Assembly (NCBI GenBank): GCA_024707205.1
Contig: JANQAD010000001.1
Coordinates: 2,383,979 to 2,447,978, forward strand
From: Demequina sp.
GTDB lineage: Bacteria > Actinomycetota > Actinomycetes > Actinomycetales > Demequinaceae
Direction of reading: 5' to 3'
Length of the DNA: 64,000 nucleotides
Shown: piece after piece, positions 2,315 to 57,703 of the stretch
How the letters are laid out: each line of letters starts with the position of its first letter
Position numbering within the stretch: the stretch's first letter is position 1
Notes under the pieces: generated by a model
Database searches by the model: none
Seen by the model: only the letters and a program-made list of their open reading frames with translations
Told to the model about the DNA's origin: nothing
Program-made: the position numbers and the translations under genes

Positions 2315-4033
2315 ATGAGCGCTACGGAAGACGACGAGACAACCTTCGAAGACCTCGGCCTCGAGGGGACCATCCTCAAGGCGCTGAAAGACGTGGGCTA
2401 CGAGACGCCGTCGGCCATCCAGACGCAGACCATTCCCCCACTCTTGGCCGGGCGCGACGTGGTGGGACTTGCTCAGACGGGCACGGGAAAGACCGCGGCC
2501 TTCGCCCTGCCCATCCTGGCCCGACTCGACCTGCACCAGAAGGCGCCGCAGGCGCTCGTGCTCGCGCCCACGAGGGAGCTCGCGCTCCAGGTGTGTGAGG
2601 CATTTGAGCGGTATGCGTCGCACCACAAGGGCGTGCACGTGCTTCCCGTGTACGGCGGCCAGGGCTACGGCGTGCAGCTGTCCGCGCTGCGTCGCGGGGT
2701 CCACATCGTCGTAGGCACGCCCGGCCGCATCATGGACCACCTCGACAAGGGCACGCTGGATCTGTCCCAGCTCAAGTACCTGGTGCTGGACGAGGCAGAC
2801 GAGATGCTCAAGATGGGCTTCGCGGAAGACGTGGAGACCATCCTCGCCTCGACGCCGGAGGACAAGCAGGTGGCGCTGTTCTCCGCGACCATGCCGGCGC
2901 AGATCCGGCGGTTGTCGGCGAAGTACCTCCGTGACCCGCAAGAGATCACGATCGAGCGCAAGACCACCACGTCCTCGACCATCGCGCAGCGCTACCTGAT
3001 CGTGAGCTTCGCCCAGAAGGTCGACGCGCTGACGCGCATCCTCGAGGTGGAGAACTTCGAGGCGATGATCGTCTTCACCCGCACCAAGAACGACACGGAG
3101 ACCGTTGCCGAGAAGCTGCGCGCGCGGGGATTCGCCGCGATGGCGATCAACGGCGACGTTGCGCAGGTGCAGCGCGAACGCACCATCAAGCAGCTAAGGG
3201 AGGGAAAGCTCGACATCCTGGTCGCGACGGACGTCGCCGCGCGCGGGCTCGACGTGGAGCGCATCAGCCACGTGGTGAACTTCGACATCCCCATCGACAC
3301 CGAGTCCTACGTGCACCGGGTTGGCCGCACGGGCCGCGCGGGCCGCGCGGGGGACGCGATCAGCTTCGTGACCCCGCGCGAGCGGCGCATGCTCGGCGCC
3401 ATCGAGAAGGCGACTCGCCAGCCCCTCACCGAGATGCACTGGCCAAGCGTCGATGACGTCAATGCGACTCGACTCGCCCGCTTCGACGCGTCCATCACCG
3501 CGGCCCTGGGGCAAGAGGCGCGCGTCGCGCGCTTCCGCGACATCATCGCGCACTACGTGGAGCACCACGACGTCCCCGAGTCGGATGTCGCCGCTGCCCT
3601 CGCCGTCGTGGCCCAAGGCGAGACTCCCCTGCTCCTCGATCCACAGGAGGAGCCAAAGGCGCAGGCCTTCGCCCCCGACAAGGGGACCGGCACGCGAGAG
3701 CCAAGGGAGCGTCGGGCACCCGCAAGCGGCTTCGCCACCTACCGCATCGCCGTTGGCAAGCGGCACAAGGTGGAGCCGCGGCAGATCGTTGGCGCGCTCG
3801 CCAACGAGGGCGGGCTCGCGCGAAGCGACTTTGGCGCGATCAAGATACTCCCGGACTTCTCGCTCGTTGAGCTGCCGGCCCAACTCCCGCCCGAGACCTT
3901 CCGCAAACTGAGTGGCACGCGCATCAGCGGCAAGCTCATCGAGCTGCGGCTCGACACCGGCCCCGGGGGTCCCCGCGCGGGTCGCGCCGGTGCGCCGCGC
4001 AAGGACCGCAAGCCCCGTCACCCTCGGTCATGA
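2315..4033 (+). CDS. deaD: DEAD-box ATP-dependent RNA helicase, DeaD/CsdA type
   Basis: This 572-residue RNA helicase has the complete motif set: Q-motif (TFEDLGL...PSAIQTQTIP), Walker A AQTGTGKT near residue 50, PTREL, DEAD in VLDEADEML, SAT, and the second RecA domain ending HRVGRTGRAGR. Residues from about 470 (ATYRIAVGKRHKVEPRQIVGA) to 545 form a DbpA/CsdA-type RNA-binding domain, followed by a basic arginine/glycine-rich tail. Relatives unwind structured RNA in ribosome assembly and cold adaptation. The 5' end appears leaderless (TAGGTT six bases before the ATG). The stop overlaps the start of the next gene by four bases. Confidence 0.93.
   Translation: MSATEDDETTFEDLGLEGTILKALKDVGYETPSAIQTQTIPPLLAGRDVVGLAQTGTGKTAAFALPILARLDLHQKAPQALVLAPTRELALQVCEAFERYASHHKGVHVLPVYGGQGYGVQLSALRRGVHIVVGTPGRIMDHLDKGTLDLSQLKYLVLDEADEMLKMGFAEDVETILASTPEDKQVALFSATMPAQIRRLSAKYLRDPQEITIERKTTTSSTIAQRYLIVSFAQKVDALTRILEVENFEAMIVFTRTKNDTETVAEKLRARGFAAMAINGDVAQVQRERTIKQLREGKLDILVATDVAARGLDVERISHVVNFDIPIDTESYVHRVGRTGRAGRAGDAISFVTPRERRMLGAIEKATRQPLTEMHWPSVDDVNATRLARFDASITAALGQEARVARFRDIIAHYVEHHDVPESDVAAALAVVAQGETPLLLDPQEEPKAQAFAPDKGTGTREPRERRAPASGFATYRIAVGKRHKVEPRQIVGALANEGGLARSDFGAIKILPDFSLVELPAQLPPETFRKLSGTRISGKLIELRLDTGPGGPRAGRAGAPRKDRKPRHPRS
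3708..3717 (+). repeat. AGCGTCGGGC dispersed 10-mer, coding copy
   Basis: This is an exact copy of the recurrent 10-mer. It lies in the helicase coding region, in the disordered linker (RERRAP) just before the C-terminal RNA-binding domain. Confidence 0.6.
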
Positions 4034-4743
4034 ACGCTCCCGTCATCGGTATCACGAGCGTTCTGGACCGCGCCCAGTCTGGAGTGTGGGACACGGAGGC
4101 CGTCTTTCTGCATTGGCACTACGGGGAGGCGTTTGTGGCCGCGGGCGCCGCGGTTGCCGTCCTCCCGCCGCAGCCCGCGCTGCCCGACGCCGTTGCTGCT
4201 GTCCTTGACGGCATCAGTGGGCTTGTGGTCACCGGTGGCGCCGACCTGGACGCCGCGCTCTACGGCCAGACCGAGCACCCCGACAATGACGCTCCTCACC
4301 CGATGCGAGACGAGTGGGAGTTGGCGCTGACGCGCGGGGCTCTTGAGCGCGGGATGCCGTTCCTGGGGATCTGCCGCGGGTCGCAGGTGCTCAATGTGGC
4401 ACGGGGCGGCACGCTGATTCAGCACGTGCCGGACGTTGTGGGACACAAGCGCCACGAGGGCGAGGGTGACCGGTTCGGCTCCATTGGGGTGTCCACGATT
4501 CCCGGCACGCGTGTGGCGGAGCTGCACCCCGCGGAGTCCGTGGTGCCCGTCTACCATCACCAGGCGATCGACGCGGTGGGCGAGGGGCTCGTTGTGAGCG
4601 CGCGCAGCGAGGACGGGATCGTCGAGGCCGTCGAGGCTCCGGGTGCGCCATTCTGCATTGCTGTCCAGTGGCACCCGGAGGAGGACGACCGCACCGCGCT
4701 CTTCGAGGCGTTTGTCGCGGCGGCGGCTGCTTACAGCGCGTAG
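4030..4743 (+). CDS. gamma-glutamyl-gamma-aminobutyrate hydrolase family protein (peptidase C26)
   Basis: A class-I glutamine-amidotransferase-like hydrolase of 237 residues. The nucleophile elbow GICRGSQVLNVARGG holds the catalytic cysteine near residue 117, and the QWHPEE motif near residue 215 supplies His and Glu. PuuD and related C26 peptidases hydrolyse gamma-glutamyl amides such as gamma-Glu-GABA in putrescine breakdown. The next gene encodes a flavin amine oxidase, which fits a polyamine or amine catabolic role, but no other puu genes are present. The ATG overlaps the helicase stop (ATGA), so translation is probably coupled. Confidence 0.85.
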   Translation: MNAPVIGITSVLDRAQSGVWDTEAVFLHWHYGEAFVAAGAAVAVLPPQPALPDAVAAVLDGISGLVVTGGADLDAALYGQTEHPDNDAPHPMRDEWELALTRGALERGMPFLGICRGSQVLNVARGGTLIQHVPDVVGHKRHEGEGDRFGSIGVSTIPGTRVAELHPAESVVPVYHHQAIDAVGEGLVVSARSEDGIVEAVEAPGAPFCIAVQWHPEEDDRTALFEAFVAAAAAYSA

Positions 4744-4747
4744 TGCA

Positions 4748-4783
4748 ACTTTCGCGCCCCCAGCCAAGACACGAAGCGAAAGT
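4748..4783 (+). terminator. inverted repeat between peptidase C26 and amine oxidase genes
   Basis: ACTTTCGC (4748-4755) and GCGAAAGT (4776-4783) are a perfect 8-bp inverted repeat starting four bases after the upstream stop codon. It could be a weak terminator or an operator for the gene starting at 4798; no T-tract follows. Confidence 0.35.
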
Positions 4784-4797
4784 GGGATGCTGAGGCC

Positions 4798-6946: not shown

Positions 6947-6962
6947 TGACAGCCTGATAATG

Positions 6963-8156
6963 CTACCGGACTCCCGGAGCGTCCTGGAACACGGACGCAC
7001 GGTCACGCCCCGCGTCCTTCGCGTCGTAGAGCGCGGCGTCCGCGCGGCCGAGCACCTCGGAAAGGGTCAGGTCCGCCAGGCACTGGGCGACGCCGAAGCT
7101 CGCGGTGGGGAGCACGTGGCCCAGCGCGTCGGGCCCGGCGGCGAGCCGTTCGCGGATCTCCTCAAGCCGCGCCAGCACGGCCTCCTCGCCAAGGTTCTCG
7201 AGCACAAAGCCGAACTCGTCGCCGCCAAGGCGCCCAATGGCGTCGGACGAGCGAAGGGCGCCGCGGGCGACCTCGGCGAAGCGTTGCAGGGTGCGGTCCC
7301 CCGCCTGGTGGCCGAACTCGTCGTTGATCGGCTTGAAGTTATCGAGGTCCGCGATCACAAGCCACGACTGGCCGGAGCGTCGACCGCCGGAGCCGGCGAT
7401 CGCGTCCTGTGCCCGCGCCAGGAACGAGGTGCGGCCCAGGAGGCCCGTCAGGTCGTCTTCAGCGGCTCGGCGGCGCAGCGCCCGCGTGCGCTGATCCCAG
7501 CCGATCGCGGAGACGGAGAAGGTCACCGCCACGAGGCAGATGAGCAGCGTGACGGAGGTTGTCGAAGAGCCAACCGCGCCGGTGAACAGCGGGTGGTCAC
7601 TTCCAAGCCCCATGTACAGCGCGAACCTCGCGACGTACAGCACGCCAAGCACGGTGGCCGCGATGCCGCTCACCGCGAGAGCCGTGATGGCCTCGCCACT
7701 GTCGCGAGCGTCGGGCTCCGAACGGCGCTGCGCCCACGCGCCCCAAACCTCCCAGGCGCCAAGGCTGAACCCGGAGGCCATCAGCGCGAACAGCAGTCCG
7801 TTTCCGGCCCAGATGTTCGTGGACGGCTGATCGAAGCACGCGACCACCACCGCGAGAATTGGCGCGACCGCGAGCAGCCACACCGGATTGGGTCGCTTGC
7901 GCAGCGATCGGGTGGCGAACCACACGCAGATCGCACCCACGACGGAGACGAATGTGGAGCTCGGATTCGTGTACACCTGGAGGTCCGTGCCATTGGCCAA
8001 CAGGAGCACCGAGCTCGCCGCCGCGCACAGCAGCGCGATGGTCCACCAGCCAGAGAAAGGCGAGTGTGTTGGCCGGTAAACACCCAAATAGAACAAAGCG
8101 AGCACCGCGAGAGACACTATTCCGAGCATCAGCCTCAGAGTCTCGACATCGAACAC
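6963..8156 (-). CDS. membrane-bound diguanylate cyclase (GGDEF)
   Basis: A 397-residue protein with seven or so hydrophobic segments in the first 220 residues, followed by a cytoplasmic GGDEF domain (DDLTGLLGR near 236, RLGGDEFGFVL near 308). The catalytic motif is intact and an RxxD inhibitory site (RSSD) lies five residues before it. It should therefore make cyclic di-GMP from two GTP with product inhibition. No EAL or HD-GYP partner is present here. I chose the GTG at 8156 because TAGCCT ends six bases upstream, a leaderless arrangement; a TTG two codons further upstream is possible. The gene is divergent from pcp. Confidence 0.88.
   Translation of the reverse strand: MFDVETLRLMLGIVSLAVLALFYLGVYRPTHSPFSGWWTIALLCAAASSVLLLANGTDLQVYTNPSSTFVSVVGAICVWFATRSLRKRPNPVWLLAVAPILAVVVACFDQPSTNIWAGNGLLFALMASGFSLGAWEVWGAWAQRRSEPDARDSGEAITALAVSGIAATVLGVLYVARFALYMGLGSDHPLFTGAVGSSTTSVTLLICLVAVTFSVSAIGWDQRTRALRRRAAEDDLTGLLGRTSFLARAQDAIAGSGGRRSGQSWLVIADLDNFKPINDEFGHQAGDRTLQRFAEVARGALRSSDAIGRLGGDEFGFVLENLGEEAVLARLEEIRERLAAGPDALGHVLPTASFGVAQCLADLTLSEVLGRADAALYDAKDAGRDRASVFQDAPGVR
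7707..7716 (+). repeat. AGCGTCGGGC dispersed 10-mer, coding copy
   Basis: This is an exact copy inside the diguanylate cyclase gene, in a cytoplasmic loop (SEPDARDS) between membrane segments. Confidence 0.6.
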
Positions 8157-8162
8157 AGCCAA

Positions 8163-8168
8163 AGGCTA
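8163..8168 (-). promoter_or_regulatory. leaderless -10 element of the diguanylate cyclase gene
   Basis: TAGCCT (minus strand) lies six bases before the GTG at 8156, with no Shine-Dalgarno. It is 18 bases from the divergent pcp -10 at 8187. Confidence 0.45.
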
Positions 8169-8186
8169 CAGGCCCCCAGAAGCACG

Positions 8187-8192
8187 TATTCT
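8187..8192 (+). promoter_or_regulatory. leaderless -10 element of pcp
   Basis: TATTCT ends six bases before the ATG at 8199 and no ribosome-binding site is present, so transcription probably begins at the start codon. Confidence 0.45.
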
Positions 8193-8198
8193 CATGCC

Positions 8199-9817: not shown

Positions 9818-9827
9818 GCCCGACGCT
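9818..9827 (-). repeat. AGCGTCGGGC dispersed 10-mer, intergenic copy
   Basis: GCCCGACGCT on the plus strand begins immediately after the DUF1801 stop codon, in the 18-base gap before the convergent der stop. It is a single site with no inverted partner. Confidence 0.65.
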
Positions 9828-11308: not shown

Positions 11309-12000
11309 GGCGCCTCCGTATTGGCCCGACGCTGTCGCAAAGGGTCGTCCTTTGGCAGCACCAGGTCGGTGGTCGCCAGGGTCTTGTCGAGTTGGCCGCG
11401 CAGGGCCGCAGCTACCTGTTCCGATGCCGCGGTCTGACGGGCGCGGCCCTTGAGCTCCGGGGGCAGGTCAAGCTGGATGGGCTCGCCGAACTCGACGAGG
11501 ATGCGGCGGCGCGGCTTTGGCCACAGGTTCACGCTCTCCCCCGGCAGGCGGGTGCCGAGCAGCGCGGTGGGGATGATCGGCGCGCCGGACTGGACCGCGA
11601 GCCATGCGGCTCCGCCGTGGACCTGTTGGGCCGTGCCGCCGCCGCGGGTTCCCTCGGGGAACACTCCGACGATGTCGCCACGTCTCAGCACCGCGAGACC
11701 CTTGGCGAGCGCGCTGCGGCCGTCACCCTCGACCGGGATCTGGGCGGCGCCGTGCAGCAGCGGCTTGAGCGGTCCCTTGAACATGTCAGCGCGGATCAAG
11801 AAGTAGTTGAGGCGCGGGATCACGCCGTGGACCACCGGGCCGTCGATGAAGCCAACGTGGTTCACGACCACGATGCCCGGGCCCTTCTTGGGGATGTTCT
11901 TCTTGCCGCGCACCTCGGTGTTCCACAGCCCGCGGGCGAGGCCACGCCCCACCCAACGCGACCAGCGCGGGCCCCAGTGTGTGGGCACCTTCTTGCTCAT
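11305..12000 (-). CDS. plsC: 1-acyl-sn-glycerol-3-phosphate acyltransferase
   Basis: An acyltransferase of 231 residues that makes phosphatidic acid from lysophosphatidic acid and acyl donors at the membrane. The H(X4)D motif reads NHVGFIDG near residue 48, followed by the FPEGTRGGG phosphate-binding motif near 116 and a [10 protein letters not shown] motif. It is the usual partner of cmk and der in actinobacteria. Both ends overlap neighbours by four bases (ATGA), showing translational coupling. The final codons contain a copy of the dispersed 10-mer. Confidence 0.9.
11324..11333 (-). repeat. AGCGTCGGGC dispersed 10-mer, coding copy at 3' end of plsC
   Basis: An exact copy in the last ten codons of plsC (encoding RQRRAN), a poorly constrained C-terminal tail. 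Confidence 0.6.
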
Positions 12001-12665: not shown

Positions 12666-13703
12666 GAGCGCACCACCTCCCAGTTGTTGGCTTCCAGGGC
12701 CTCTACCAGGGTTGTCGCGCTTCCTGGGAGCACAAAGAGCGTGGTGAGGCCGACGCTCTGGCGCGGCGAGTGCTCGATGGAGATGTCCTCGACGTTGACG
12801 TTGACCGCGGCGGTCTCTTGGAGGAGGCGCACGAGCTGGCCGGGCGTGTCGGGGACGATCACCGTGACGCCGGCCCAGTCCCGGGGCGCACCGCCGTGCT
12901 TACCTGGAATGCGATCTACTTCTAGGCGGCCGCGCTCGATGAGGTCGGTGAGGGCTTCGCCGATGTCGTCGGCCTCGCGCACGTCCTCGAGGTCGCCGAT
13001 GATGTGGTCCAGCGTGGCGACGAGGTTGTGTCGGTTGAGGCGGGCGATGTCGGCCCACATGCCGGGCTGGCTCGCCGCGATCCTTGTGACATCCCTGAGG
13101 CCTTGGCCTGCGAGGGCGATGTCGTCCGGGTGCAGGGTGCCGAGGGCCGCGGCGACCGCGCTCGCCGCGACTTGCGGGGCGTGGCTCACGCGCGCGACCG
13201 CCGCGTCGTGGGCCACGGCCTCCATGAACACCACGTCCGCCTGGAGCGCTTCGGCGATCGCGGTGACTCGCTCCACCGCTGCGTCGGTGGCGCCGTTGCG
13301 GCAGATCACCCACGGGCGCGCCTTGAAGAGGTCGCCCTGCGCGGCGAGCGAACCGGAGATCTCGCGTCCCGCCATGGGGTGCGAGCCCACGTAGCGGTCG
13401 CCAAAGCCGGTGTCGTGCGCCGCTTGGGCAATCGGTGACTTGACGCTCGCAACGTCGGTGACCACAGCGTCGGGCCATGTTGCCAGGGCCTTTGCCACTA
13501 CCTCTGGGGCGGCCGACGGTGGGGCGGCCACGATCACGACGTCCGGTTGGGCGTCACCGAGTTCGCCGCCGGCGCCGAGCGCGGGCGAGGCGGGCGGTCT
13601 CGGGGTCGACGTCGTCGACGGAGACGTCCCAGCCTTCGGCGGTGAGGCCGATGCCGAGGCTCGCGCCGATGAGGCCGGCGCCGACGATGTGTACGCGGGT
13701 CAT
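12662..13703 (-). CDS. tyrA: prephenate dehydrogenase with C-terminal ACT domain (frame broken near 13581)
   Basis: Prephenate dehydrogenase for tyrosine synthesis, about 347 residues. The N-terminal NAD motif is VGAGLIGASLGIGL. VTDVASVKSPI and GSHPMAGREISG follow, the latter holding the catalytic histidine, and the C-terminal ~75 residues (GVTVIVPDTPGQLVRLL) form an ACT domain, the usual tyrosine-sensing module. Near 13581 the frame shifts inside CGCGCTCGGCGCC; removing one G or restoring a CG pair joins both halves. A probable sequencing error. It lies two bases after aroH, so aroH and tyrA supply successive steps from chorismate to hydroxyphenylpyruvate. Confidence 0.88.
13466..13475 (+). 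repeat. AGCGTCGGGC dispersed 10-mer, coding copy
   Basis: An exact copy within tyrA (encoding WPDAV on the minus strand), in the extended form CACAGCGTCGGGCC shared with several intergenic copies. Confidence 0.6.
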
Positions 13704-13705
13704 GA

Positions 13706-17560: not shown

Positions 17561-18385
17561 TCAGGCAAAGACGCCGCGGGCCACCAGCTCGCGCGTCAGC
17601 TCGCGGTACGCGTTGGCGCCCGTGTGGTTTGGCGCGTAGGTGGTGATGGGCTCGGCGGCGACCGTGGCGTCGGGGAACTTCACGGTGCGGTGGATCATCG
17701 TCTCGGTGACCTTGTCGCCAAAGCCGTCGCGCACGCGCTCCACCACCTCGTGGCTGTGGAGGGTGCGGCCGTCGTACATGGTGGGGATGATCGCGTCGAT
17801 CGTGAGGCGCGGGTTGAGGCGGTCCTGCACCTTGGTGATCGTGTCGACGAGCAGGGCGACCCCGCGCATCGCGAAGAACTCCGCCGCGAGCGGGATGAGC
17901 ACGCCGTGGGCCGCTACCAGGCCGTTTACCGTCAGCAGTCCGAGCGAAGGCTGGCAGTCCACAAGGATCACGTCGTACTCGTCCTCAACGGGGCGCAGCG
18001 CGCGTGCGAGGGCGCTTTCCCTGGCCACCTCCCCAACCAACTGCACCTCTGCCGCGCTCAGGTCGATGTTGGCGGGAAGCAAATCCAAGCCTTCCCAGCG
18101 AGTGGCAACGATGACGTCCTTGGTCTTGGGAGCGTCGGGCCCCGTGCGCATGAGGAGGTCGTAAACGGTCGTTTCCAGGTCGTTTGACTGTACGCCGAGG
18201 CCCGCGGAGGCGGCGCCCTGCGGGTCAAAATCCACGAGGAGCACGCGACGCCCGTACTCGGCGAGCGCGGCCGCGATATTGACCGACGTCGTGGTCTTGC
18301 CGACCCCGCCCTTCTGGTTGCACAGCGCCACGACGCGCGCGGGGCCGTGACCGGTGAGTGGGGCGGGCACGGGGAAGTCGGTCAC
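17561..18385 (-). CDS. ParA/Soj-family ATPase
   Basis: A ParA-superfamily ATPase of 274 residues. The deviant Walker A reads CNQKGGVGKTTTSVN near residue 22, Walker A' is VLLVDFDPQG and Walker B is VILVDCQPSLGLL. There is no parB beside it; it is the ParA-like gene attached to the scpAB operon in actinobacteria, distinct from the origin-linked parAB. It probably acts in DNA or cargo positioning together with condensin; that role is inferred. The GTG start has TAAGGT seven bases upstream and no Shine-Dalgarno. Confidence 0.9.
   Translation of the reverse strand: MTDFPVPAPLTGHGPARVVALCNQKGGVGKTTTSVNIAAALAEYGRRVLLVDFDPQGAASAGLGVQSNDLETTVYDLLMRTGPDAPKTKDVIVATRWEGLDLLPANIDLSAAEVQLVGEVARESALARALRPVEDEYDVILVDCQPSLGLLTVNGLVAAHGVLIPLAAEFFAMRGVALLVDTITKVQDRLNPRLTIDAIIPTMYDGRTLHSHEVVERVRDGFGDKVTETMIHRTVKFPDATVAAEPITTYAPNHTGANAYRELTRELVARGVFA
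18131..18140 (+). repeat. AGCGTCGGGC dispersed 10-mer, coding copy
   Basis: An exact copy within the ParA-like gene, encoding GPDAP on the minus strand. Confidence 0.6.
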
Positions 18386-18411: not shown

Positions 18412-18421
18412 GCCCGACGCT
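18412..18421 (-). repeat. AGCGTCGGGC dispersed 10-mer, intergenic copy
   Basis: An exact copy upstream of the ParA-like gene, close behind its putative -10 element. A low-complexity TTGGC/TGGCT stretch follows at 18425-18450. Confidence 0.65.
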
Positions 18422-21958: not shown

Positions 21959-21991
21959 GGCCCGACGGCCCGCTCACCACAGCGTCGGGCC
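21959..21991. repeat. inverted pair containing the AGCGTCGGGC 10-mer, ctaB-tkt intergenic
   Basis: GGCCCGACG (21959-21967) and CGTCGGGCC (21983-21991) form a 9-bp stem. The right arm is part of an exact AGCGTCGGGC copy (21981-21990), while the left arm diverges after the ninth base. It lies in the divergent promoter region between ctaB and tkt, so it is not a simple 3'-end terminator. Confidence 0.65.
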
Positions 21992-38744: not shown

Positions 38745-41586
38745 TCACGCCGCCGCGCTCGTGGCGAGCAGCTCCGCGAGGAAACGACCCGTGTGGCTCG
38801 CCGAGTTGGCGGCCACGTCCTCCGGGGTGCCCTCGGCGATCACGAGACCACCGCCGTTGCCGCCCTCTGGGCCCATGTCCACAACCCAGTCTGCAGACTT
38901 GATGACGTCCAGGTTGTGCTCGATCACGATCACCGTGTTGCCCTTGTCAACGAGCCCCTGGAGCACGCCGAGGAGCTTGCGCACGTCCTCGAAGTGCAGT
39001 CCGGTCGTCGGCTCGTCGAGCACGTAGATGGTGCGCCCCGTTGACCTACGCTGCAGCTCGGATGCGAGCTTCACGCGCTGCGCCTCGCCACCGAGAGAGA
39101 GTCGGCGCGGGTTGGCCAAGTCGAACGTAGCCGAGGCCCACGTCAACGAGAGTGCTGAGATGCCTCGAGATCGCCGGAATCGCCTCGAAGAACTCGGCGG
39201 CCTCCGAGATGGGCATGTTGAGCACGTCCGCCACGTTCTTGCCCTTGAAATGCACCTCGAGCGTCTCGCGGTTGTAACGGGCGCCCTTGCACACCTCGCA
39301 CGGCACGTACACGTCGGGGAGGAAGTTCATCTCGATCTTGAGCGTGCCGTCCCCAGAGCAGGCCTCGCACCGACCGCCTTTGACGTTGAAGGAGAAGCGG
39401 CCGGGCCCGTACCCGCGCACCTTGGCCTCGGTGGTCTCGGAGAACAGCTTCCGGACCCGATCCCACACTCCCGTGTAGGTCGCGGGGTTCGAGCGCGGGG
39501 TGCGGCCGATCGGCCCCTGGTCCACGTGGACGATCTTGTCGAGGTGCTCGGTGCCGGTGATGCGCGAGTGACGGCCTGGCACCTGACGCGCTCCGTTCAG
39601 CGTGTTCGCAAGCGAGGTGTACAGGATCGTGTTGACGAGCGTCGACTTCCCGGATCCCGAGACGCCAGTCACCGCGGTCAGCACCCCGAGCGGGAACTGG
39701 ACGTCGATGTCCTGCAGGTTGTGCTCGCGCGCACCCACCACGGTGAGCGTCTTGCCGTCATCGATGGGCCTGCGGACGTCCGGGAGCGGGATCTCGCGCT
39801 TTCCAGAGACGTATTGGCCCGTCAGCGAGCGATCGTTCGTGAGGAGCGCGTCCACGGTGCCCGAGTGAACCACCTCTCCCCCGTGCTCGCCCGCCCCGGG
39901 GCCGATGTCGACCACCCAGTCGGCGGTGCGGATCGTGTCCTCGTCGTGCTCGACGACGATGAGGGTGTTCCCCAGGTCCCGAAGGCGGGTGAGCGTCTCG
40001 ATGAGTCGGCGGTTGTCGCGCTGATGCAGGCCGATGCTCGGCTCGTCGAGCACGTACAAGACACCCACCAGTCCCGAGCCGATCTGCGTGGCGAGGCGGA
40101 TGCGCTGCGCCTCGCCGCCGCTCAGCGTTGCGGCCGCGCGCGACATGGTCAGGTAGTCGAGGCCAACGTCGAGCAGGAAGCCTAGGCGCGCGTCGATCTC
40201 CTTGAGAACCTGCACGGCGATCTGCCGTCCGCGCTCGTCGAGCTCGGCATTCTCGAGGAACTCGCGCGCGTTCCGTATCGAGAGGTTGCACACCTCGGCG
40301 ATCGACTTGCCTCCAACGGTGACCGCGAGCACCTCCGGCTTGAGCCGCGTCCCCTCGCACACGGGACACGGGATCTCCCGCATGTAGGCCTCGTACTTCT
40401 CGCGGGTCCAGTCCGACTCCGTCTGACCGTGGAGGCGCTCGAGCCACGTGATGGCGCCCTCGAAGCCCGTGGTGTACTGCCGCTCGCGACCGTAGCGGTT
40501 CTTGAAGCGCACGTGCACCTGATAGTTGTTGCCGTACAGCACGGCCTTCTTCGCGTCGTCGCCCAGCGTGTGCCACGGGGCTTGCATGTCGAAGCCAACC
40601 TCGTGCGACAGGGCCTCGAGGGTGCGGCCGAAGTAGTCGGACGAGACGCTCGCCCACGGTGCCACCGCCCCCTGCGCGAGGCTCAGATCGGGATCGGGGA
40701 CCACGAGATCAGGGTCCACCTCAAGCTTCACGCCGATGCCCGTGCATTCCGGGCACGCACCATAGGGGGCGTTGAACGAGAAGGTGCGCGGCTCCATCTC
40801 TTCCAAGGTGAGCACATGGTCGTTGGGGCACGCACGCTTCTCGCTGTAGCGTCGGGCGGGCGAGTCACCGTCAACGGGGTCGATGATGACGAGGCCGTCC
40901 GCGATGCGCAGCGCGGTCTCCACCGAGTCCGTGAGCCGCTGACGGATGCCGTCCCTCGCGACGAGGCGGTCGACCACGACCTCCACGTCATGCTTGAGCT
41001 TCTTCTCGAGCTGCGGCGGCTCGCTGAGTTGGACCGTCTCGCCGTCAACGCGCGCGCGGGCGAAGCCCTGGCTCTGAAGGTCTTCGAAGAGGTCCTGGTA
41101 TTCGCCCTTGCGGCCCCTCACCACAGGGGCGAGCACCTGATACCGGGTGCCCTCCGGCATCGCGAGCACGGAGTCCACGATCTGCTGCGGGGTCTGCGAG
41201 CGGATCTCCTCGCCGCACACCGGGCAATGCTGGGTGCCGACGCGCGCGTACAGCAGGCGCAGGTAGTCGTAGACCTCGGTGATGGTGCCGACGGTGGAGC
41301 GCGGATTGCGGTTCGTGGACTTCTGGTCGATCGACACCGCGGGCGACAGCCCCTCGATGAAGTCCACATCCGGCTTGTCCATCTGGCCTAGGAACTGGCG
41401 CGCGTACGCGCTCAGCGACTCGACGTAGCGGCGCTGCCCCTCCGCGAAGATGGTGTCGAAGGCGAGCGATGACTTCCCTGACCCGCTGAGGCCGCTGAAC
41501 ACGATCAGCGCGTCCCTGGGAAGGTCGAGGTCGATGCCCTTGAGGTTGTGCTCGCGCGCGCCGCGCACGATCAGCCGGTCATTCAC
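38745..41586 (-). CDS. uvrA: excinuclease ABC subunit A (frame change near 39097)
   Basis: UvrA of about 946 residues, the damage-recognition ATPase of nucleotide excision repair. It has two ABC modules ([20 protein letters not shown] near 32 and [15 protein letters not shown] near 640), [16 protein letters not shown] in the first signature, and zinc-binding cysteine groups ([22 protein letters not shown]). At the second signature, PTLS and [13 protein letters not shown] are separated by one extra base in CTCTCTCGG near 39097, probably a sequencing error. The GTG start at 41586 follows a leaderless -10, and an SOS box overlaps the -35 region. Confidence 0.93.
40848..40857 (+). repeat. AGCGTCGGGC dispersed 10-mer, coding copy
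   Basis: An exact copy within uvrA, in the segment encoding PARRYSE. Confidence 0.6.
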
Positions 41587-45445: not shown

Positions 45446-45494
45446 GCCCGACGCTGTGGGCAAATTCCAGCGGAAGGTTGCCACAGCGTCGGGC
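45446..45494. repeat. inverted pair of the AGCGTCGGGC 10-mer between rpsA and coaE
   Basis: GCCCGACGCTGTGG (45446-45459) and CCACAGCGTCGGGC (45481-45494) form a perfect 14-bp inverted repeat. A second small stem (TTCC/GGAA) lies inside the 21-base spacer. Both arms contain exact 10-mers. It is separate from, and downstream of, the rpsA terminator. Confidence 0.75.
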
Positions 45495-47036: not shown

Positions 47037-47122
47037 TAAGGAGTAGCTCCGATGGATGGGGGATTCGGTATGAATATGGACGTGGCCGAAGGGCGCGCGA
47101 GGGCGCAAAATGGCCAACGGAC

Positions 47123-47152
47123 ATCATACCCTGCGTGCGTGCCCACGCACAA
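47123..47152 (-). promoter_or_regulatory. candidate rpsA promoter
   Basis: On the minus strand TTGTGC (47147-47152) and TATGAT (47123-47128) are separated by 18 bases, giving a leader of about 80 bases before the rpsA ATG. A 7-bp GTGCGTG/CACGCAC repeat lies in the spacer. Confidence 0.45.
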
Positions 47153-47157
47153 TGCCG

Positions 47158-47167
47158 GCCCGACGCT
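47158..47167 (-). repeat. AGCGTCGGGC dispersed 10-mer, intergenic copy
   Basis: An exact copy two bases past the pfkA stop, in the pfkA-rpsA intergenic region just upstream of the candidate rpsA promoter. It is a single site. Confidence 0.65.
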
Positions 47168-47169
47168 TC

Positions 47170-48192: not shown

Positions 48193-48202
48193 GTGCCTGC
48201 CT

Positions 48203-50860: not shown

Positions 50861-50867
50861 AGATGCC

Positions 50868-50873
50868 AACCTA
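50868..50873 (-). promoter_or_regulatory. leaderless -10 element of polA
   Basis: TAGGTT on the minus strand ends seven bases before the GTG at 50860; it lies within the 18 bases separating polA from the divergent thioesterase ATG. Confidence 0.5.
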
Positions 50874-50878
50874 TCCTC

Positions 50879-51277: not shown

Positions 51278-51295
51278 CACTAGGGGTCTAGTGTT
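51276..51295. promoter_or_regulatory. palindromic operator candidate and -10 upstream of livHMGF
   Basis: AACACTAG (51276-51283) and CTAGTGTT (51288-51295) form a perfect 8-bp inverted repeat with a 4-base spacer, overlapping the thioesterase stop. TAGTGT (51289-51294) within it is a plausible -10, giving a short leader with AAGGAGGAG before the TTG at 51321. A dimeric repressor bound here would block livH transcription. Confidence 0.5.
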
Positions 51296-51320
51296 GGCGC
51301 AACTGGCACAAGGAGGAGCA

Positions 51321-52349: not shown

Positions 52350-52350
52350 C

Positions 52351-53316
52351 ATGGACTTCAACGACATCCTGCAGATCGTCATCTCGCCCACCACGGCGGC
52401 GTTCGCGCTCGCCGCGATCGGCCTCAACTTCCACTACGGCCTCACCGGGCTGCTCAACATGGGCCACGCGGGCTTCATGCTCATCGGAATGTACGGGTAC
52501 GGCATTTCGGTCTCGCACGGCCTGCCAGCCTGGCTCGCGCTGATCATCGCCATGCTCGGCGCCGTCCTGTTCGCCCTCCTGTTGGGATGGCCGACGCTGC
52601 GGTTGCGAGGCGATTACCTCGCCATCGTGACCATCGCCGCCGCGGAGATCGTGCGCATCGTCGGGCGCAGTCAGTGGCTCAAGGAGTGGACGGGCGGCAA
52701 CACGGGCATTCGCGGCAAAGACTTCAAGGGTCCGTTCGAGGCCCTGTCGCCGTTCCCCCCGAAGCTGATCCGCATCGGTCCATGGCAGTTCCACGGCACG
52801 CTGTCCAACTCGTGGTGGCTGCTGGTCGTTGGCTGGGCACTCGTCGCGGTGTTCGCGCTGCTGTTCTGGCGGCTCAAGTCCAGCCCGTGGGGCCGCGTGA
52901 TGCGCGGCATTCGCGAAGACGAGGACGCGGTTCGCTCGCTCGGCAAGAACGTGTACTCGTTCAAGATGCAGTCGCTCGTGATCGGCGGCGTGATCGGCGC
53001 GCTCGGCGGCATCGTGTGGGCGCACGCGAACGCCATCTCGCCGGACTCCATGGGACGCACCACGACGTTCTGGATCTGGACCATGCTGCTGCTCGGTGGA
53101 GCGGCGACCGTCTTTGGGCCCATCCTCGGATCGTGCCTGTTCTGGGCGCTGTTCGTGGCGATCAAGCAGCTGGCGCCGTTGGCGCTGCCGAACCTGCAGG
53201 GAACGCAGGTGGAGCCGCTCGCGCTGGCGTTCGTCGGCCTTGGCCTGATCCTCCTGATCATCTTCAGACCCCAAGGCATCCTGGGCAACAAGAGGGAGAT
53301 CGCGATCAATGGTTGA
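52351..53316 (+). CDS. livM: branched-chain amino acid ABC transporter permease LivM
   Basis: LivM-type permease of 321 residues, starting ATG one base after the livH stop. The hallmark ALAAIGLNFHYGLTGLLNMGHAGFMLIGMYG is at the N-terminus and GRVMRGIREDEDAVRSLGKNVYSFKM in the cytoplasmic loop near 195 is the coupling region contacting the ATPases. The C-terminus ends IIFRPQGILGNKRE. It overlaps livG by eight bases. Confidence 0.94.
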   Translation: MDFNDILQIVISPTTAAFALAAIGLNFHYGLTGLLNMGHAGFMLIGMYGYGISVSHGLPAWLALIIAMLGAVLFALLLGWPTLRLRGDYLAIVTIAAAEIVRIVGRSQWLKEWTGGNTGIRGKDFKGPFEALSPFPPKLIRIGPWQFHGTLSNSWWLLVVGWALVAVFALLFWRLKSSPWGRVMRGIREDEDAVRSLGKNVYSFKMQSLVIGGVIGALGGIVWAHANAISPDSMGRTTTFWIWTMLLLGGAATVFGPILGSCLFWALFVAIKQLAPLALPNLQGTQVEPLALAFVGLGLILLIIFRPQGILGNKREIAING

Positions 53317-54147
53317 GATCCCGTCGTTCGAGCACGTCGAGGCTAAGCCCGGCGCCCCCAAGCCCGACTCCATCCTCACCGCCGACGGCGTCATGCGCTC
53401 CTTCGGCGGTCTCGTGGCGGTCAATGTGCAGCACTTTGAGGTGCAGCGTCACTCGATCACCGCACTCATCGGCCCCAACGGTGCTGGCAAGTCGACGTTC
53501 TTCAACCTGCTCACCGGGTTCGACACGGCGCAGGAAGGCCACGGAACGTTCAACGGCCGCCCGCTGCGCGGCATGTCCTCGGCGCAGGTGGCGCGCGCGG
53601 GAATGGTCCGCACCTTCCAGCTCACCAAGGCGCTCAGCCGCATGACGGTGATCGAGAACATGCGCCTTGGCGCGCAGAACCAGGGTGGCGAGAACTTCGC
53701 GAGGGCACTGCTCCCGCCGCTGTGGCGGAGCCGCGAGAAGGAGATCACCGAACAGGCGGAGGAACTCCTCACGCGCTTCAAGCTGATCGAGAAGAAGGAC
53801 GACTACGCCGGCTCGCTCTCTGGCGGCCAGCGCAAGCTCCTCGAGATGGCGCGCGCACTCATGTCGAAGCCTGAGATGGTCATGCTCGACGAGCCCATGG
53901 CCGGCGTGAACCCCGCGCTCACCGAGTCCTTGCTCGAGCACATCGTTGCCCTGCGCCAGGACGGCGTGACCGTGCTGTTCGTGGAGCACGACATGCACAT
54001 GGTGCGTCGTATCTCCGACTGGGTGGTGGTCATGGCCGAGGGCCGCATCATCGCCGAGGGCAATCCGCACGAGGTTATGAGGGACCCCGCGGTGCAGGAC
54101 GCGTACCTTGGCGCCCACCACGACACCGACCTATTCGAGGAGCGCTC

Positions 54148-54151
<4 letters not shown>
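53309..54151 (+). CDS. livG: branched-chain amino acid ABC transporter ATPase LivG
   Basis: ABC ATPase of 280 residues. Walker A is LIGPNGAGKSTFFNLLTGF near 50, the signature is YAGSLSGGQRKLLEMARALM near 165, and Walker B is PEMVMLDEPMAGVNP, followed by the H-loop VLFVEHDMHMV. The RTFQLTKALSRMTVIENMRLG segment is typical of LivG. It overlaps livF by four bases. Confidence 0.95.
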
Positions 54152-54875
<724 letters not shown>

Positions 54876-55025
54876 GCGTCAACCGCGCAAAGCTGTCTTC
54901 ACGCGCCGCAGCTGTCGCCCCGCGCGTAGCCCGGCTGGAATGGTTGCTCGGTGTCGCGAAAATGCGATTTGGACGCACTCAGAGTCCATTCGAGGCGCCC
55001 GCAGGATGACCCCGCAAACGAAGAG

Positions 55026-55049
55026 GGCCCCCGGATTGCTCCGGGGGCC
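55026..55049. terminator. bidirectional terminator between livF and livK
   Basis: GGCCCCCGGA (55026-55035) and TCCGGGGGCC (55040-55049) form a perfect 10-bp stem with a TTGC loop and flanking AAGAG/CTTC. It lies between the convergent livHMGF operon and livK. The rest of the 207-base gap shows nothing further. Confidence 0.8.
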
Positions 55050-55082
55050 TTCATCGTGTCAGCTTCGCTGGCGTCGGGGAGG

Positions 55083-56351
55083 CTACTTGACCTCGCCCTC
55101 CTGAGCGGACTGCCAGACGGGAACGTTGTTCGCGTCGAACTTGTAGATGCCGATGAAGGCGCTCGAGGGGTCGTTGTCTGCGTTGAACGGACCAGACCCT
55201 GCGACCGTCTTGTAGGCGATCTCCTTGCCGTCCTGGAGCAGTGCCAGGCAGTCGGCGTAGGAGGCGCACTCCTCACCACCGGTGGCACCGGAGACGGCGG
55301 CCATGTTGGCCTGGATCGACGCGCCGTCGGTCTTGCCGGCCTTCTGGGCGGCGAGAGCGAGCAGGATCGTCGAGTCGTAGGACTCAGGGCCGTACGCGAA
55401 CGACGTCAGGGGCGACGGGGCCACCGAGTTGAGGCGGTCCTGGAAGTCCTGAGCGGGGAACGCGCCAGGAATCGTGCCCTGGGCACCCTCGAGGACGCCG
55501 GGGTCGAAGTCCTTCGAGTAGTCGGCCGTGTTGCCGTCGACCATGTAGATGTTGGCCGCCGGGTAGCCCGCCTCAACCAGCTTGGGGACGATGCCCTTGG
55601 TCTGGTCGAACGCGATGATCACGAGAGCGTCGGGGTTCGTCGCAAGGGCGTTGGACACGATCGAGTCGAAGTCCGTCTCCTTGGGGTCGAACTCCTGGCC
55701 CGACTTGCCGTAGGTGATCGTGGCGCCACCGGCCTCGGTGGTGGCCTGGATCACGTCACGAAGCGAGGTGCCGTAGTCGTCGTTGAACACGAGGACAGCG
55801 ATGTTCTTCTTGCCATCGGCGAGCAGGAGCTTGCCCATGACGTCACCCTGGATCGTGTCCGGCGGTGCCACGCGGAAGTAGAACGGCGAGTAGCCGGACA
55901 GCTTCGTGGACGTGTTCGCGGGCGAGATCTGCACGATCGACGCGGCCGCGATGGTGTCGACCACGTTGAGCGAAACCGTCGAGGACGCCGCACCGACGAT
56001 GCCGCCAACGCCATCGCTGATGAGCTTGTCAACGGAGGTGCTCGCCACCGTGGGGTTGTCAGCGTCGGACGAGTCGGTGTGAATGACCTTGACGTCCTGA
56101 CCGTTCACGCCGCCAGCCTCGTTGATGTCCTTGATCGCCAGGTCAACGCCCGCGATCTCGGGCGGGCCGAGGAAGGCGAGGCTGCCCGTTTGGGGAAGCA
56201 GCGAGCCGATAGTGAGGGCCGATCCGTCTCCACCAGGAGCGGGAGCGCCAGTGTTGCCACTCGGCTCGTCGCTCGTGGAGCAAGCGGCAAGGGCCAGCGC
56301 TGCTACGGCGGCAAGAGCCGACCCGCGCGCGATGGTGTTCCAACGTGCCAT
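55083..56351 (-). CDS. livK: branched-chain amino acid ABC transporter substrate-binding lipoprotein
   Basis: Periplasmic-type binding protein (type 1 fold) of 422 residues. The signal peptide RGSALAAVAALALAACSTSD has a lipobox LAAC with the lipid-anchored cysteine near residue 24, followed by a low-complexity linker and the mature domain starting LTIGSLLPQTGSLAFLGPPEIAGVDLAI. FNDDYGTSLRDVI and DALVIIAFDQTKGI are typical. A GGAGGAAACAAC ribosome-binding site precedes the ATG. It is convergent with livHMGF rather than within the operon, so binding protein and permease genes have separate promoters. Confidence 0.94.
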   Translation of the reverse strand: MARWNTIARGSALAAVAALALAACSTSDEPSGNTGAPAPGGDGSALTIGSLLPQTGSLAFLGPPEIAGVDLAIKDINEAGGVNGQDVKVIHTDSSDADNPTVASTSVDKLISDGVGGIVGAASSTVSLNVVDTIAAASIVQISPANTSTKLSGYSPFYFRVAPPDTIQGDVMGKLLLADGKKNIAVLVFNDDYGTSLRDVIQATTEAGGATITYGKSGQEFDPKETDFDSIVSNALATNPDALVIIAFDQTKGIVPKLVEAGYPAANIYMVDGNTADYSKDFDPGVLEGAQGTIPGAFPAQDFQDRLNSVAPSPLTSFAYGPESYDSTILLALAAQKAGKTDGASIQANMAAVSGATGGEECASYADCLALLQDGKEIAYKTVAGSGPFNADNDPSSAFIGIYKFDANNVPVWQSAQEGEVK

Positions 56352-56413
56352 GTTGTTTCCTCCATGCCGACGCCGAAGCGCCAGCCGATAGCCCAGGAGA
56401 CCCTCCCCTGCGC

Positions 56414-56451
56414 GTTATAGGAAACGCTAGCGCGCCAAAGTTTCGCTAGTG
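56414..56451 (-). promoter_or_regulatory. candidate livK promoter and operator region
   Basis: TATAAC on the minus strand (56414-56419) is a possible -10. Next to it CTAGCG (56427-56432) and CGCTAG (56444-56449) are inverted, and the second continues to CTAGTG (56446-56451), the half-site found in the palindrome upstream of livH. The remaining sequence of this 156-base gap shows no gene. Confidence 0.35.
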
Positions 56452-56507
56452 CGTCGGCATAGTCACGATTTCTTTACCTAAGCCACGCCGAACCAGGGGC
56501 GATGGGG

Positions 56508-57113
56508 CTACTTGCCGCCCATTTGCTCGATAACGGCCTCGGCGACCTCGCGCATCGTAAGGCGACGGTCCATCGAGGTCTTCTGAATCCAGCGGAAGGA
56601 CTCCGGCTCGTTGAGGGTCATCTTCTCCATCAGGATGCCCTTGGCGCGCTCGACCTTCTTGCGGGTCTCCATGCGCTCGTTGATGTCCGCGATCTCGAGC
56701 TCGAGCGCCCGGATCTCGGAGAATCGCGACGCCGCGATCTCCACGGCGGGAATCAGGTCTCCAGGCGTGAAGGGCTTCACGACGTAGGCCATCGCGCCCG
56801 CGTCGCGAGCGCGCTCAACGAGCTCCGTCTGCGAGAACGCGGTCAGCAGTACCACCGGCGCCAGGCGATCCTTCGCGATCAGCTCCGCCGCGGTGATGCC
56901 GTCCATGACGGGCATCTTGATGTCCATGACGACGACGTCTGGCTTGTGCTCCTTGGCCGCCGCGACCGCCTCTTCGCCGTTCGCCGCCTCCCCCACGACC
57001 TCGTAGCCGCCCTCGCGGAGCGTCTCGACAATGTCCATCCGGATGAGCGCCTCGTCCTCGGCAACAACGGCGCGGCGACGCTTGGGGGTCACGGTTTCTG
57101 GGGTCTCGGTCAC
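56508..57113 (-). CDS. ANTAR-domain response regulator (PdtaR-like)
   Basis: A 201-residue response regulator with an N-terminal receiver domain (acidic pocket VVAEDEALIRMDI, phosphoryl aspartate in VVVMDIKMPVMDG near 60, lysine in YVVKPF) and a C-terminal ANTAR RNA-binding domain (ERAKGILMEKMTLNEPESFRWIQKTSMDRRLTMREVAEAVI). ANTAR proteins bind paired hexaloop hairpins in RNA to prevent termination. It resembles mycobacterial PdtaR (Rv1626); the cognate kinase is not nearby. The GTG at 57113 has TAGGCT seven bases upstream. Proximity to liv and glt genes suggests, without proving, nitrogen control. Confidence 0.92.
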   Translation of the reverse strand: MTETPETVTPKRRRAVVAEDEALIRMDIVETLREGGYEVVGEAANGEEAVAAAKEHKPDVVVMDIKMPVMDGITAAELIAKDRLAPVVLLTAFSQTELVERARDAGAMAYVVKPFTPGDLIPAVEIAASRFSEIRALELEIADINERMETRKKVERAKGILMEKMTLNEPESFRWIQKTSMDRRLTMREVAEAVIEQMGGK

Positions 57114-57120
57114 ACCCGCT

Positions 57121-57126
57121 AGCCTA
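57121..57126 (-). promoter_or_regulatory. leaderless -10 element of the ANTAR regulator gene
   Basis: TAGGCT on the minus strand ends seven bases before the GTG at 57113. Confidence 0.5.
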
Positions 57127-57134
57127 ATAGGCGC

Positions 57135-57208
57135 GCCCCGATAGCCCAACCGGCAGAGGCAAACGGCTCAAACCCGTTCCAGTGTGGGTTCGAATCCCAC
57201 TCGGGGCA
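57135..57208 (+). tRNA. tRNA-Leu (anticodon CAA) with short variable arm
   Basis: A cloverleaf with perfect acceptor stem GCCCCGA/TCGGGGC, anticodon stem AACGG/CCGTT around loop CTCAAAC (anticodon CAA, reading UUG), T-arm GTGGG-TTCGAAT-CCCAC and discriminator A. The variable region is only five bases (CCAGT), a class I shape, whereas leucine tRNAs normally have a long class II arm. No CCA is encoded. It is divergent from the ANTAR gene. Confidence 0.88.
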
Positions 57209-57223
57209 CCGATTGGAGTACCG

Positions 57224-57665
57224 ATGGAGTTCCGCGCAGAGGTGGAGCCCAACGAGAAGATGCGTGGGCTCGAGGTTCCGTCCGACGCCGTGGCCGGCCT
57301 GGGTGCCGGCGCTCGGCCGCGGGTGCGGGTCACCGTCAACGACCACTCATGGTCAACCCGCATAGCGATCATGCGCGGGCGGAATCTCATCGGCCTGAGC
57401 AACGCGAATCGCGCCGCGGCCGGCCTCACCGTTGGCGAGGTCGTGACCGTCCGCATCGAGGTTGACGACTCCCCCATCGTCGTCGAGGAGCCCCGGAGCT
57501 CGCCACCGCCCTTGGCGCCGATCCCGCGGCCCGTGCCGCATTCGATCGCCTCACGGACTCTCAGCGCCGGCAGGCGGCACGCGTCATCTCTCAGGCAAAA
57601 GGCGAGGCAACACGGGAGCGGCGCGTCGCCGCCCTGCTGAAGACGCTGGCAGGCGACGCTGCGGG
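57224..57665 (+). CDS. DUF1905 / YdeI-OmpD-associated-like protein (frame broken near 57494; 3' end uncertain)
   Basis: A small protein with an N-terminal DUF1905 domain (MEFRAEVEPNEKMRGLEVPSD; VNDHSWSTRIAIMRGRNLIG) and, after a frame break, a helical tail (FDRLTDSQRRQAARVISQAKGEATRERRVAALLKTL) typical of YdeI/OmdA-type domains. The break lies in the CCCC run at 57491-57494; adding one C joins the parts. Unrepaired, the frame ends at 57640. In the repaired frame no stop appears before the palindrome at 57676, so the exact end is unclear. GGAG precedes the ATG. The function of the family is unknown. Confidence 0.65.
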
Positions 57666-57675
57666 ACAAAGCGGA

Positions 57676-57703
57676 GGGAGCGTCGGGCATGCCCGACGCT
57701 CCC
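57676..57703. repeat. perfect palindrome made of two AGCGTCGGGC copies between convergent genes
   Basis: GGGAGCGTCGGGC (57676-57688), AT, then GCCCGACGCTCCC (57691-57703): a perfect 13-bp palindrome with both 10-mers tail to tail. It lies between the convergent DUF1905-like gene and pyk and probably also works as a bidirectional terminator. Confidence 0.8.

Follow-up and report, generated by a model that had tools for sequence, protein, structure and literature searches.

To our knowledge, DNA uptake self-tags are so far known only from two Gram-negative families. The USS of Pasteurellaceae combines a core with a weaker conserved flank at a fixed distance, while another very frequent short word, the palindromic HIP1 of cyanobacteria, has a debated function. 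As far as the cited sources describe them, the DUS of Neisseriaceae are non-palindromic words of 10-12 bp, present in up to thousands of copies, which form eight dialects that follow phylogeny and share an invariant core, and some genomes of that family lack an abundant DUS word (PMC3630211). USS copies are biased to gene ends (PMC2346458), and uptake-sequence sites originate by substitution, with stronger conservation than in their surroundings (PMC2397512). Micrococcus luteus is a naturally transformable actinobacterium with comEA, comEC and Flp/Tad pili, for which the available part of PMC6370729 mentions no uptake word. Among the listings returned by searches of the open-licence PMC literature, none named such a word for Demequina, Micrococcales, Actinomycetota, Actinobacteria or M. 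luteus, in keeping with the sequence-only reading, which knew of no described actinobacterial uptake sequence. A term search within PMC8467076 gave no uptake word, and neither competence nor DNA uptake in Demequina was the subject of any paper that our literature search returned.

A frequent word in the Demequina genome

We analysed a stretch of 64,000 nucleotides of a Demequina genome (the window), in which the 10-letter word AGCGTCGGGC is the most frequent 10-mer. Its 15 exact copies—eight plus and seven minus—have precisely the coordinates and strands reported by the sequence-only reading (Table 1), and the earlier estimate of less than one expected copy agrees with 100 dinucleotide shuffles of the window, which gave a mean of 0.69 and a maximum of 3. 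Two other claims needed adjustment. There are indeed intergenic copies, but by our own gene calls they number 7 of the 15 rather than eight; and the word does extend to the 14-mer CACAGCGTCGGGCC, but "many" was an overstatement, since the 14-mer is complete around three window copies and has one mismatch around three more.

Table 1. Exact copies of AGCGTCGGGC in the window and their surroundings (genes called with our own simple caller)
Feature	Position	Strand	Context
exact copy	3708..3717	+	inside gene 2315-4033 (+)
exact copy	7707..7716	+	inside gene 6960-8807 (+)
exact copy	9818..9827	-	intergenic, convergent genes 9383-9817 (+) / EngA-type GTPase 9836-11308 (-)
exact copy	11324..11333	-	close to 3' end of gene 11305-11952 (-), directly upstream of EngA-type GTPase start
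exact copy in full 14-mer CACAGCGTCGGGCC (13463-13476)	13466..13475	+	inside gene 12662-13537 (-)
exact copy	18131..18140	+	inside gene 17561-18385 (-)
exact copy	18412..18421	-	intergenic, divergent genes 17561-18385 (-) / 18599-19942 (+)
exact copy in full 14-mer CACAGCGTCGGGCC (21978-21991)	21981..21990	+	inside gene 20893-24156 (+)
exact copy	40848..40857	+	inside gene 39046-41586 (-)
exact copy, left half of inverted pair, gap 29 bp	45446..45455	-	between coaE (called 44835-45428, -) and S1-domain (rpsA-type) gene 45549-47117 (-)
exact copy, right half of inverted pair with 45446..45455	45485..45494	+	
exact copy	47158..47167	-	intergenic, S1-domain gene 45549-47117 (-) / gene 47170-48192 (-)
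exact copy	54741..54750	-	inside gene 54585-54875 (+); 39 relatives aligned at site
exact copy, left half of palindrome, gap 2 bp	57679..57688	+	between called genes 57353-57541 (-) and 57722-59140 (-)
exact copy, right half of palindrome with 57679..57688	57691..57700	-	

The whole genome of 2.54 Mb holds 908 copies (460 plus, 448 minus) versus 11 of the reversed word, and the window is therefore typical of the genome. Detailed tests were run on a sample of 864 kb (34% of the genome) with 297 exact copies. Comparison with a Markov model, a check proposed with the original observation, placed the word well above expectation in this sample, at about 30-40x; over-representation was 41.8x for exact copies, 1.85x with one mismatch and 0.82x with two. 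Frequent single-mismatch variants are confined to position 1 (G, 77) and position 9 (C, 86; A, 57); all other single changes occur 0-17 times each in the 864 kb.

Copies in genes and between them

Within genes of the 34% sample, 97 copies are sense and 103 antisense, of which synonymous shuffling leaves 2.6 and 5.7, respectively; codon use explains about 8 of the 200. Density is 0.261/kb in coding and 1.063/kb in intergenic DNA. The codon-preserving comparison thus reveals an enrichment without a codon explanation, together with a fourfold intergenic excess. The excess at gene ends is weak (KS p=0.04). A test for horizontally acquired genes, based on coding score, was neutral: the most codon-biased fifth has the lowest density (0.131/kb vs 0.247-0.326 elsewhere), which points to constraint.

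In genes, copies of the word originate as substitutions and show higher conservation than comparable 9-mers. Alignment to relatives is gap-free at 27 of the 29 coding sites compared (in one of the two underlying sets, 74 of the 104 comparisons come from two sites); at the copy at 40848..40857, where 35 relatives were aligned, the six displayed have similar residues in other codons. Across nine close genome pairs, with sites counted from both genomes of each pair, 56 coding sites were the same, 18 substituted and one gapped, an identity of 76% of ungapped sites versus 46% for 9-mers of the same composition. At intergenic sites of close pairs, 9 of 23 were gapped (39% vs 21% in the control, p=0.07), and coding and intergenic sites taken together were gapped in 26 of 157 cases vs 5.5% in the control. 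This gap excess at intergenic sites suggests that some intergenic copies may be gained or lost through insertion or deletion.

Neighbouring copies are sometimes paired. The two inverted pairs in the window (45446/45485 and 57679/57691) are real, but the terminator role proposed for such pairs between genes finds weak support. Among the 297 sampled copies there are 16 pairs closer than 60 bp (15 inverted, seven with a gap of 28-29 bp), and neither window pair is followed by a T-run on either strand. A terminator scan of 44700-60000 listed neither pair, although with loops of 3-8 only it could not detect the one with the 29-bp gap. Lacking a T-run, neither window pair has the form of an intrinsic terminator. 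The structure of the word is bipartite and sometimes a dyad: some intergenic 50-bp dyads are present, and an inverted arm at -39 accompanies 10 of 96 intergenic copies vs 4 of the 199 in-gene copies examined.

Dialects and competence genes

Counting in relatives, another of the proposed checks, uncovered dialects throughout the genus and provided the strongest support for the uptake-sequence interpretation. We compared 44 genomes of the genus, including that of the window (G000), and three other family genomes, on a tree based on PolA alone. The words of other Demequina, CGCATCGTCC or CGCATCGGCC, resemble that of G000 without matching it, are strand-balanced and reach up to 1,777 copies. CGCATCGKCC occurs 400-1,777 times, on both strands alike, in 27 of the 44 genus genomes, and 74 times in G000. 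It stays below 400 copies in the other 17, of which two, G000 and G027, have another word; in the remaining 15, GCRTCGGCC reaches 2.9-9.0x its reversed control, which is not codon-aware. Codon shuffles do not account for the words of G025, G018 and G016, while the G027 word CGCGTCGGGC is only 2-3-fold above its codon shuffle. A dominant word was sought but not seen in G004 (110 kb), G033, G037 and others, all of which have PilT, and the codon shuffle of G004 gave no word excess (2 copies).

The dialect words have in common the core GC(A/G)TCG and shared upstream bases. Relative to the GC of the core, a pyrimidine at -8 and CC at -5/-4 are shared by G000, G027 and clade A, whose pooled loci are partly orthologous, so that the counts are not independent; in G000 and G027, further boxes lie upstream, around -10 and -28. 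A dialect-free 14-mer, CCACNGCRTCGKSC, occurs in all 44 genus genomes (12-551 copies vs 0-20 reversed) and 7, 16 and 2 times in the three other family genomes (0, 1 and 2 reversed). In a low-power survey of polA-surrounding loci of actinobacteria (80 loci, those <12 kb skipped), Demequina loci among the best 45 showed their own words; the strongest words outside Demequina were a poly-C run (locus L215) and CGACAGCGAC (L234), the latter mostly a pair of short tandem clusters on a single strand. Locus L197 holds 14 dispersed copies of CGACGGCGAG on both strands, with 1.5 expected.

A search for competence genes, also proposed earlier, found comEA, comEC and a type IV pilus gene run (PilB/PilT/PilA/PilM) in G000. 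PilT is present in 47 of 47 family genomes and comEC in 46, and the three family genomes without the word also have pilus and com genes. In G000, comEC is split over two frames; alaS and mltG look broken too, which suggests assembly indels, the alternative being real loss. Other T2SSE-family ATPases of Demequina may be Tad-type. Of the four pilin-like proteins of the run, a hypervariable PilW-like minor pilin is the sole one with a basic ectodomain, and its similarity across genomes showed no correspondence with the dialects.

Explanations and relation to known systems

Taken together, the Markov excess, the strand balance, the independence from codon use, the intergenic excess, the substitution origin of in-gene sites, the competence genes and the dialects support the uptake-sequence reading, and we consider it probable that this Demequina species has a DNA uptake sequence whose core is AGCGTCGGGC, with species dialects. 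Points against this reading are the split comEC of G000, the genus genomes with a weak word or no dominant one, the pilus and com genes of family genomes that lack the word, the gap excess at intergenic sites and a PilW-like similarity that runs independently of the dialects. In the mechanism that we infer, DNA carrying the word would be recognised and bound at the cell surface or on the type IV pilus by a receptor, for which the PilW-like minor pilin is a candidate. PilT would retract the pilus, ComEA would hold the DNA and ComEC would import one strand, which would recombine into the chromosome. Because fragments with the word would enter more often, chance matches would spread in the population. 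This molecular drive would let the word build up on both strands, at its highest density in intergenic DNA and, within genes, at positions that permit it. Were the receptor to change, the word would follow, yielding species dialects around the shared core.

The word might instead be bound across the genome by a chromosomal protein (one that organises the nucleoid or acts in repair or segregation) and be maintained by selection. This would fit the even spread of copies (2-14 per 20 kb in 40 stretches, mean 7.05, variance 7.28), their conservation above background and the bipartite, sometimes dyad structure. However, dialects that differ within the genus would mean rewriting hundreds to thousands of sites, in-gene sites occur in both orientations, the strands show no pattern, and density falls only slightly between ori and the assumed terminus (0.43 to 0.29 per kb), making this unlikely. 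That the copies are remnants of a palindromic mobile element of about 50 bp, REP or MITE-like, is suggested by the close inverted pairs, the arm at -39 and the intergenic gap excess. Such an origin is nevertheless very improbable, because 200 of the 297 sampled copies lie in genes, the flanks are nearly uninformative further out than about 10 bp and, one duplicated pair excepted, the flanks of best partners are hardly more alike than background; for coding copies, the gap-free alignments, rare arm and uninformative flanks led us to reject such an insertion.

A Chi, KOPS or similar oriented recombination or segregation signal would likewise be short, very frequent and species-specific, but the balanced orientation from which the sequence-only reading had argued against it holds genome-wide and on replichores split at dnaA, with 151 leading and 146 lagging copies (n=297, p=0.82; terminus assumed opposite dnaA). 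This strand balance rules out such a signal save for a very slight chance. The codons CGC ATC GTC/GGC are frequent in GC-rich genomes, and Ala-Ser-Gly and Pro-Asp-Ala reading frames account for 142 of the 200 in-gene copies, as might be expected if codon use or base composition had produced the word. Yet the synonymous shuffles rule this out to within a negligible probability, density is higher between genes, and CGCATCGKCC (not AGCGTCGGGC itself) has at most 254 copies in each of 273 genomes from the order's other families.

Returning to the uptake-sequence reading, we think it somewhat more plausible than not that Demequina represents a third, independent origin of uptake sequences, the first in Gram-positives as far as we found. 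This would involve a long bipartite or tripartite word (a GGYGA box near -28, GGTGACCAC near -10 to -2 and the core GCRTCGKSC), a type IV pilus receptor rewritten several times within the genus, and dialects acting as species barriers to gene exchange. If true, such a third instance, in cells that have no outer membrane, would indicate that self-tags evolve repeatedly and that the choice of DNA does not depend on outer-membrane parts; the many living dialects of the genus would also allow receptor and word to be matched.

As far as the sources describe those systems, Demequina resembles Neisseriaceae in having a frequent non-palindromic word, dialects around a core, relatives with weak words and a type IV pilus. 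The sequences are unrelated, with GC(A/G)TCG as the Demequina core versus CTG in GCCGTCTGAA, and the high-GC Gram-positive Demequina has a putative uptake role and, in G000 and G027, the extra upstream boxes. A core plus flank, and a gene-end bias that is weak in Demequina, recall the Pasteurellaceae USS, from which it differs in its unrelated sequence (Apl-USS, ACAAGCGGT), its Gram-positive host and the putative nature of its uptake role. HIP1 is also a frequent short word but is palindromic, unlike that of Demequina. With M. luteus, Demequina shares an actinobacterial background with comEA and comEC, but it has a PilB/PilT/PilA/PilM gene run where the described pili of M. luteus are of the Flp/Tad type.

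Abundance, orientation and placement of the word

AGCGTCGGGC, the 10-mer read as a candidate DNA uptake sequence (DUS), displays every genomic hallmark of a DUS that was tested in the genome carrying the window, G000, with reservations that are named where they arise. It is the commonest 10-mer of the window, where the sequence-only reading had located 15 exact copies and expected less than one by chance; all 15 are at the positions claimed, and shuffles give 0.69. That reading had placed eight copies between genes; our own gene calls give seven of 15. The whole contig contains 908 copies (460 forward, 448 reverse), whereas the reversed pattern occurs 11 times. An 864-kb sample, representing 34% of the genome (the window plus 40 stretches of 20 kb spread across it), contains 297 copies (151 and 146 by strand) against 9.7 under a fourth-order Markov model. 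In the same sample, the excess over a third-order model is 41.8-fold with no mismatch, 1.85 with one and 0.82 with two, and the only common one-mismatch variants are G at position 1 (77 copies) and C or A at position 9 (86 and 57, respectively), with 0–17 copies for each of the others. Since the mean per 20 kb (7.05) is close to the variance (7.28), spacing is near-random. Spacings below 100 bp number 16 versus 8.7 expected, and of the 16 neighbour pairs closer than 60 bp, 15 are inverted.

Could the word be an oriented replication signal or a product of codon use? The former is ruled out by the genome-wide balance: with the origin set at dnaA and the terminus assumed to lie opposite, the sampled copies divide into 151 leading-strand and 146 lagging-strand ones (p = 0.82). 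The argument against oriented signals made earlier from balance in the window holds genome-wide, but local balance was insufficient by itself because the window is near the assumed terminus. As for codon use, genes in the 864-kb sample contain 97 sense and 103 antisense copies, whereas 20 synonymous-codon shuffles yield 2.6 (maximum 6) and 5.7 (maximum 13), respectively. The anticipated intergenic excess is also found, with 1.063 copies per kb between genes versus 0.261 within them, and density is highest in convergent spacers (1.6 per kb). In-gene copies are somewhat more frequent near gene ends (KS p = 0.04, n = 185; 25, 28, 14, 19, 18, 15, 17, 6, 18 and 25 copies by gene decile).

Origin and conservation of the sites

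For 29 of 200 sampled coding sites an alignment with a relative was possible, and 27 of these sites are gap-free. In 102 ungapped site-by-relative comparisons, protein similarity is 0.82 at the site versus 0.84 for the whole gene, and DNA mismatches are 2.75 in 10 versus 2.09 at random positions, with 74 of 104 coding-site comparisons stemming from two sites. A kept protein with raised DNA difference is as expected for a word written by base substitution. Among nine close genome pairs sharing a dialect (a related abundant word with a common core), 56 of 74 ungapped coding sites are identical, versus 46% of 9-mers of the same composition (p = 4e-7, somewhat inflated because both directions of each pair were counted). 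Intergenic sites in these pairs are the same in eight cases, substituted in six and gapped in nine (gap excess p = 0.07). One pair of copies 155 bp apart, with identical 35-base upstream flanks, is a local duplication.

Coordinates of features in G000
Feature	Position	Remark
Window	bases 2383979-2447978	one 2,538,242-base contig
dnaA	1,088,877	
Duplicated AGCGTCGGGC copies	L052:4201, L052:4356	
comEC, alaS, mltG	L270:4815-7070 and L269:816-5069	look frame-broken
PilW-like minor pilin	L269:12979-13674	in pilus gene run
Further T2SSE-family ATPases	G000:C1:798647, 1694883, 476118	besides pilus ones
Second PilT-family match	1694742-1695758	among further T2SSE-family ATPases

Dialects in the genus and word counts beyond it

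The named records nearest to the window PolA are D. phytophila, D. soli, D. aestuarii, D. activiva and Demequina sp. NBRC 110051 (72–77% identity), and in the PolA tree the fork from which the long G000 branch arises is unresolved. Our family set comprises 47 genomes, 44 in the genus and three from two other genera. AGCGTCGGGC is abundant only in G000 and G027 (254 copies), the other 45 having 5–52. Leading words elsewhere are CGCATCGTCC in G025 and G018, CGCATCGGCC in G016 and GCGTCGGGC in G027, and dialect-type words occur clade by clade in part of 37 further genomes (10–40-kb stretches each, hence low power). Codon shuffles cannot account for the leading words of G025, G018 and G016; in G027, GCGTCGGGCA and AGCGTCGGGC are clearly above them and CGCGTCGGGC by 2–3-fold, and G004 shows no word excess over them. 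CGCATCGKCC reaches 1,777 copies per genome (878+899; reversed controls 3–44 across the 47 genomes), with at least 400 in 27 of 44 genus genomes, 74 in G000, and 72, 50 and 10 in the three family members from other genera; outside the family, no more than 254 copies (the maximum, in 9.4 Mb) were found among 273 genomes of the order. Besides G000 and G027, 15 genus members have fewer than 400, and there GCRTCGGCC, which peaks at 2,272 copies in G032 (reversed 208), is 2.9–9.0 times its reversed control. In the stretches sampled from G004 (110 kb), G033, G037 and others, a dominant word was not seen. The 15 members may have a different dialect, or may no longer possess the trait. The dialect-free CCACNGCRTCGKSC exceeds its reversed control in all 44 genus genomes (12–551 copies).

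When dialect words are aligned on their common GC(A/G)TCG core, a pyrimidine at -8 and CC at -5/-4 are common to G000, G027 and one group of genus genomes (clade A), and C at -5 to another (clade B). Two further boxes are common to G000 and G027: GGTGA at about -10, and GGYGA or GGCG at about -28. Coding copies in G000 carry upstream boxes too, at -27 from A (GGCGA, 18 versus 1.3 expected; GGTGA, 12 versus 0.8).

Some polA-region loci of other actinobacteria have repeated words. In Miniimonas arenae, CGACGGCGAG occurs 14 times in 22.7 kb, dispersed on both strands (1.5 expected), a frequency that may reflect codon use. CGACAGCGAC is found at 12 sites in Prauserella halophila, all on a single strand, and 11 of them form two short tandem clusters. 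The PolA in a record titled Sphaerisporangium cinnabarinum ATCC 31213 is 61% identical to the query, as close as those of two Cellulosimicrobium records, and the title of that record may be wrong.

Pilus genes and likeness to known uptake sequences

The comEA, comEC and pilin genes that the sequence-only reading proposed to look for are all in G000. The pilus gene run consists of pilB, pilT, pilC, the major pilin, three more pilin-like genes, pilD, pilM and a downstream PilN-like gene (PilW-, PilX- and PilN-like being names read from gene position and N terminus), and comEA adjoins comEC. PilT is present in 47 of 47 family genomes and comEC in 46. Unlike in most relatives, comEC is split over two frames in G000; since alaS, which is normally essential, and mltG look broken too, we suspect that the record contains assembly indels and that the genes are not truly lost. 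The PilW-like minor pilin is hypervariable, being matched in 34 of 46 other family genomes at 19–57% identity, and its similarity among genus genomes departs from the PolA tree, which suggests exchange or fast evolution. Of the four pilin-like proteins, it alone has a basic ectodomain (pI 9.0, from residue 46), which makes it a candidate receptor, as a lead and no more.

A DNA uptake sequence is defined functionally, by biased uptake; as far as genomes can tell, the candidate AGCGTCGGGC works like one. No DUS is named for Actinomycetota in the literature searched (open-licence PMC, mostly at listing level), and a 2025 paper gives only two Gram-negative families as known to have them. The neisserial DUS offers two parallels: that word is reported as more conserved than its surroundings (PMC2397512), as the word here is conserved above background in coding sites, and five Neisseriaceae genomes are without an abundant word (PMC3630211), just as no dominant word was seen in the sampled stretches of some Demequina genomes.
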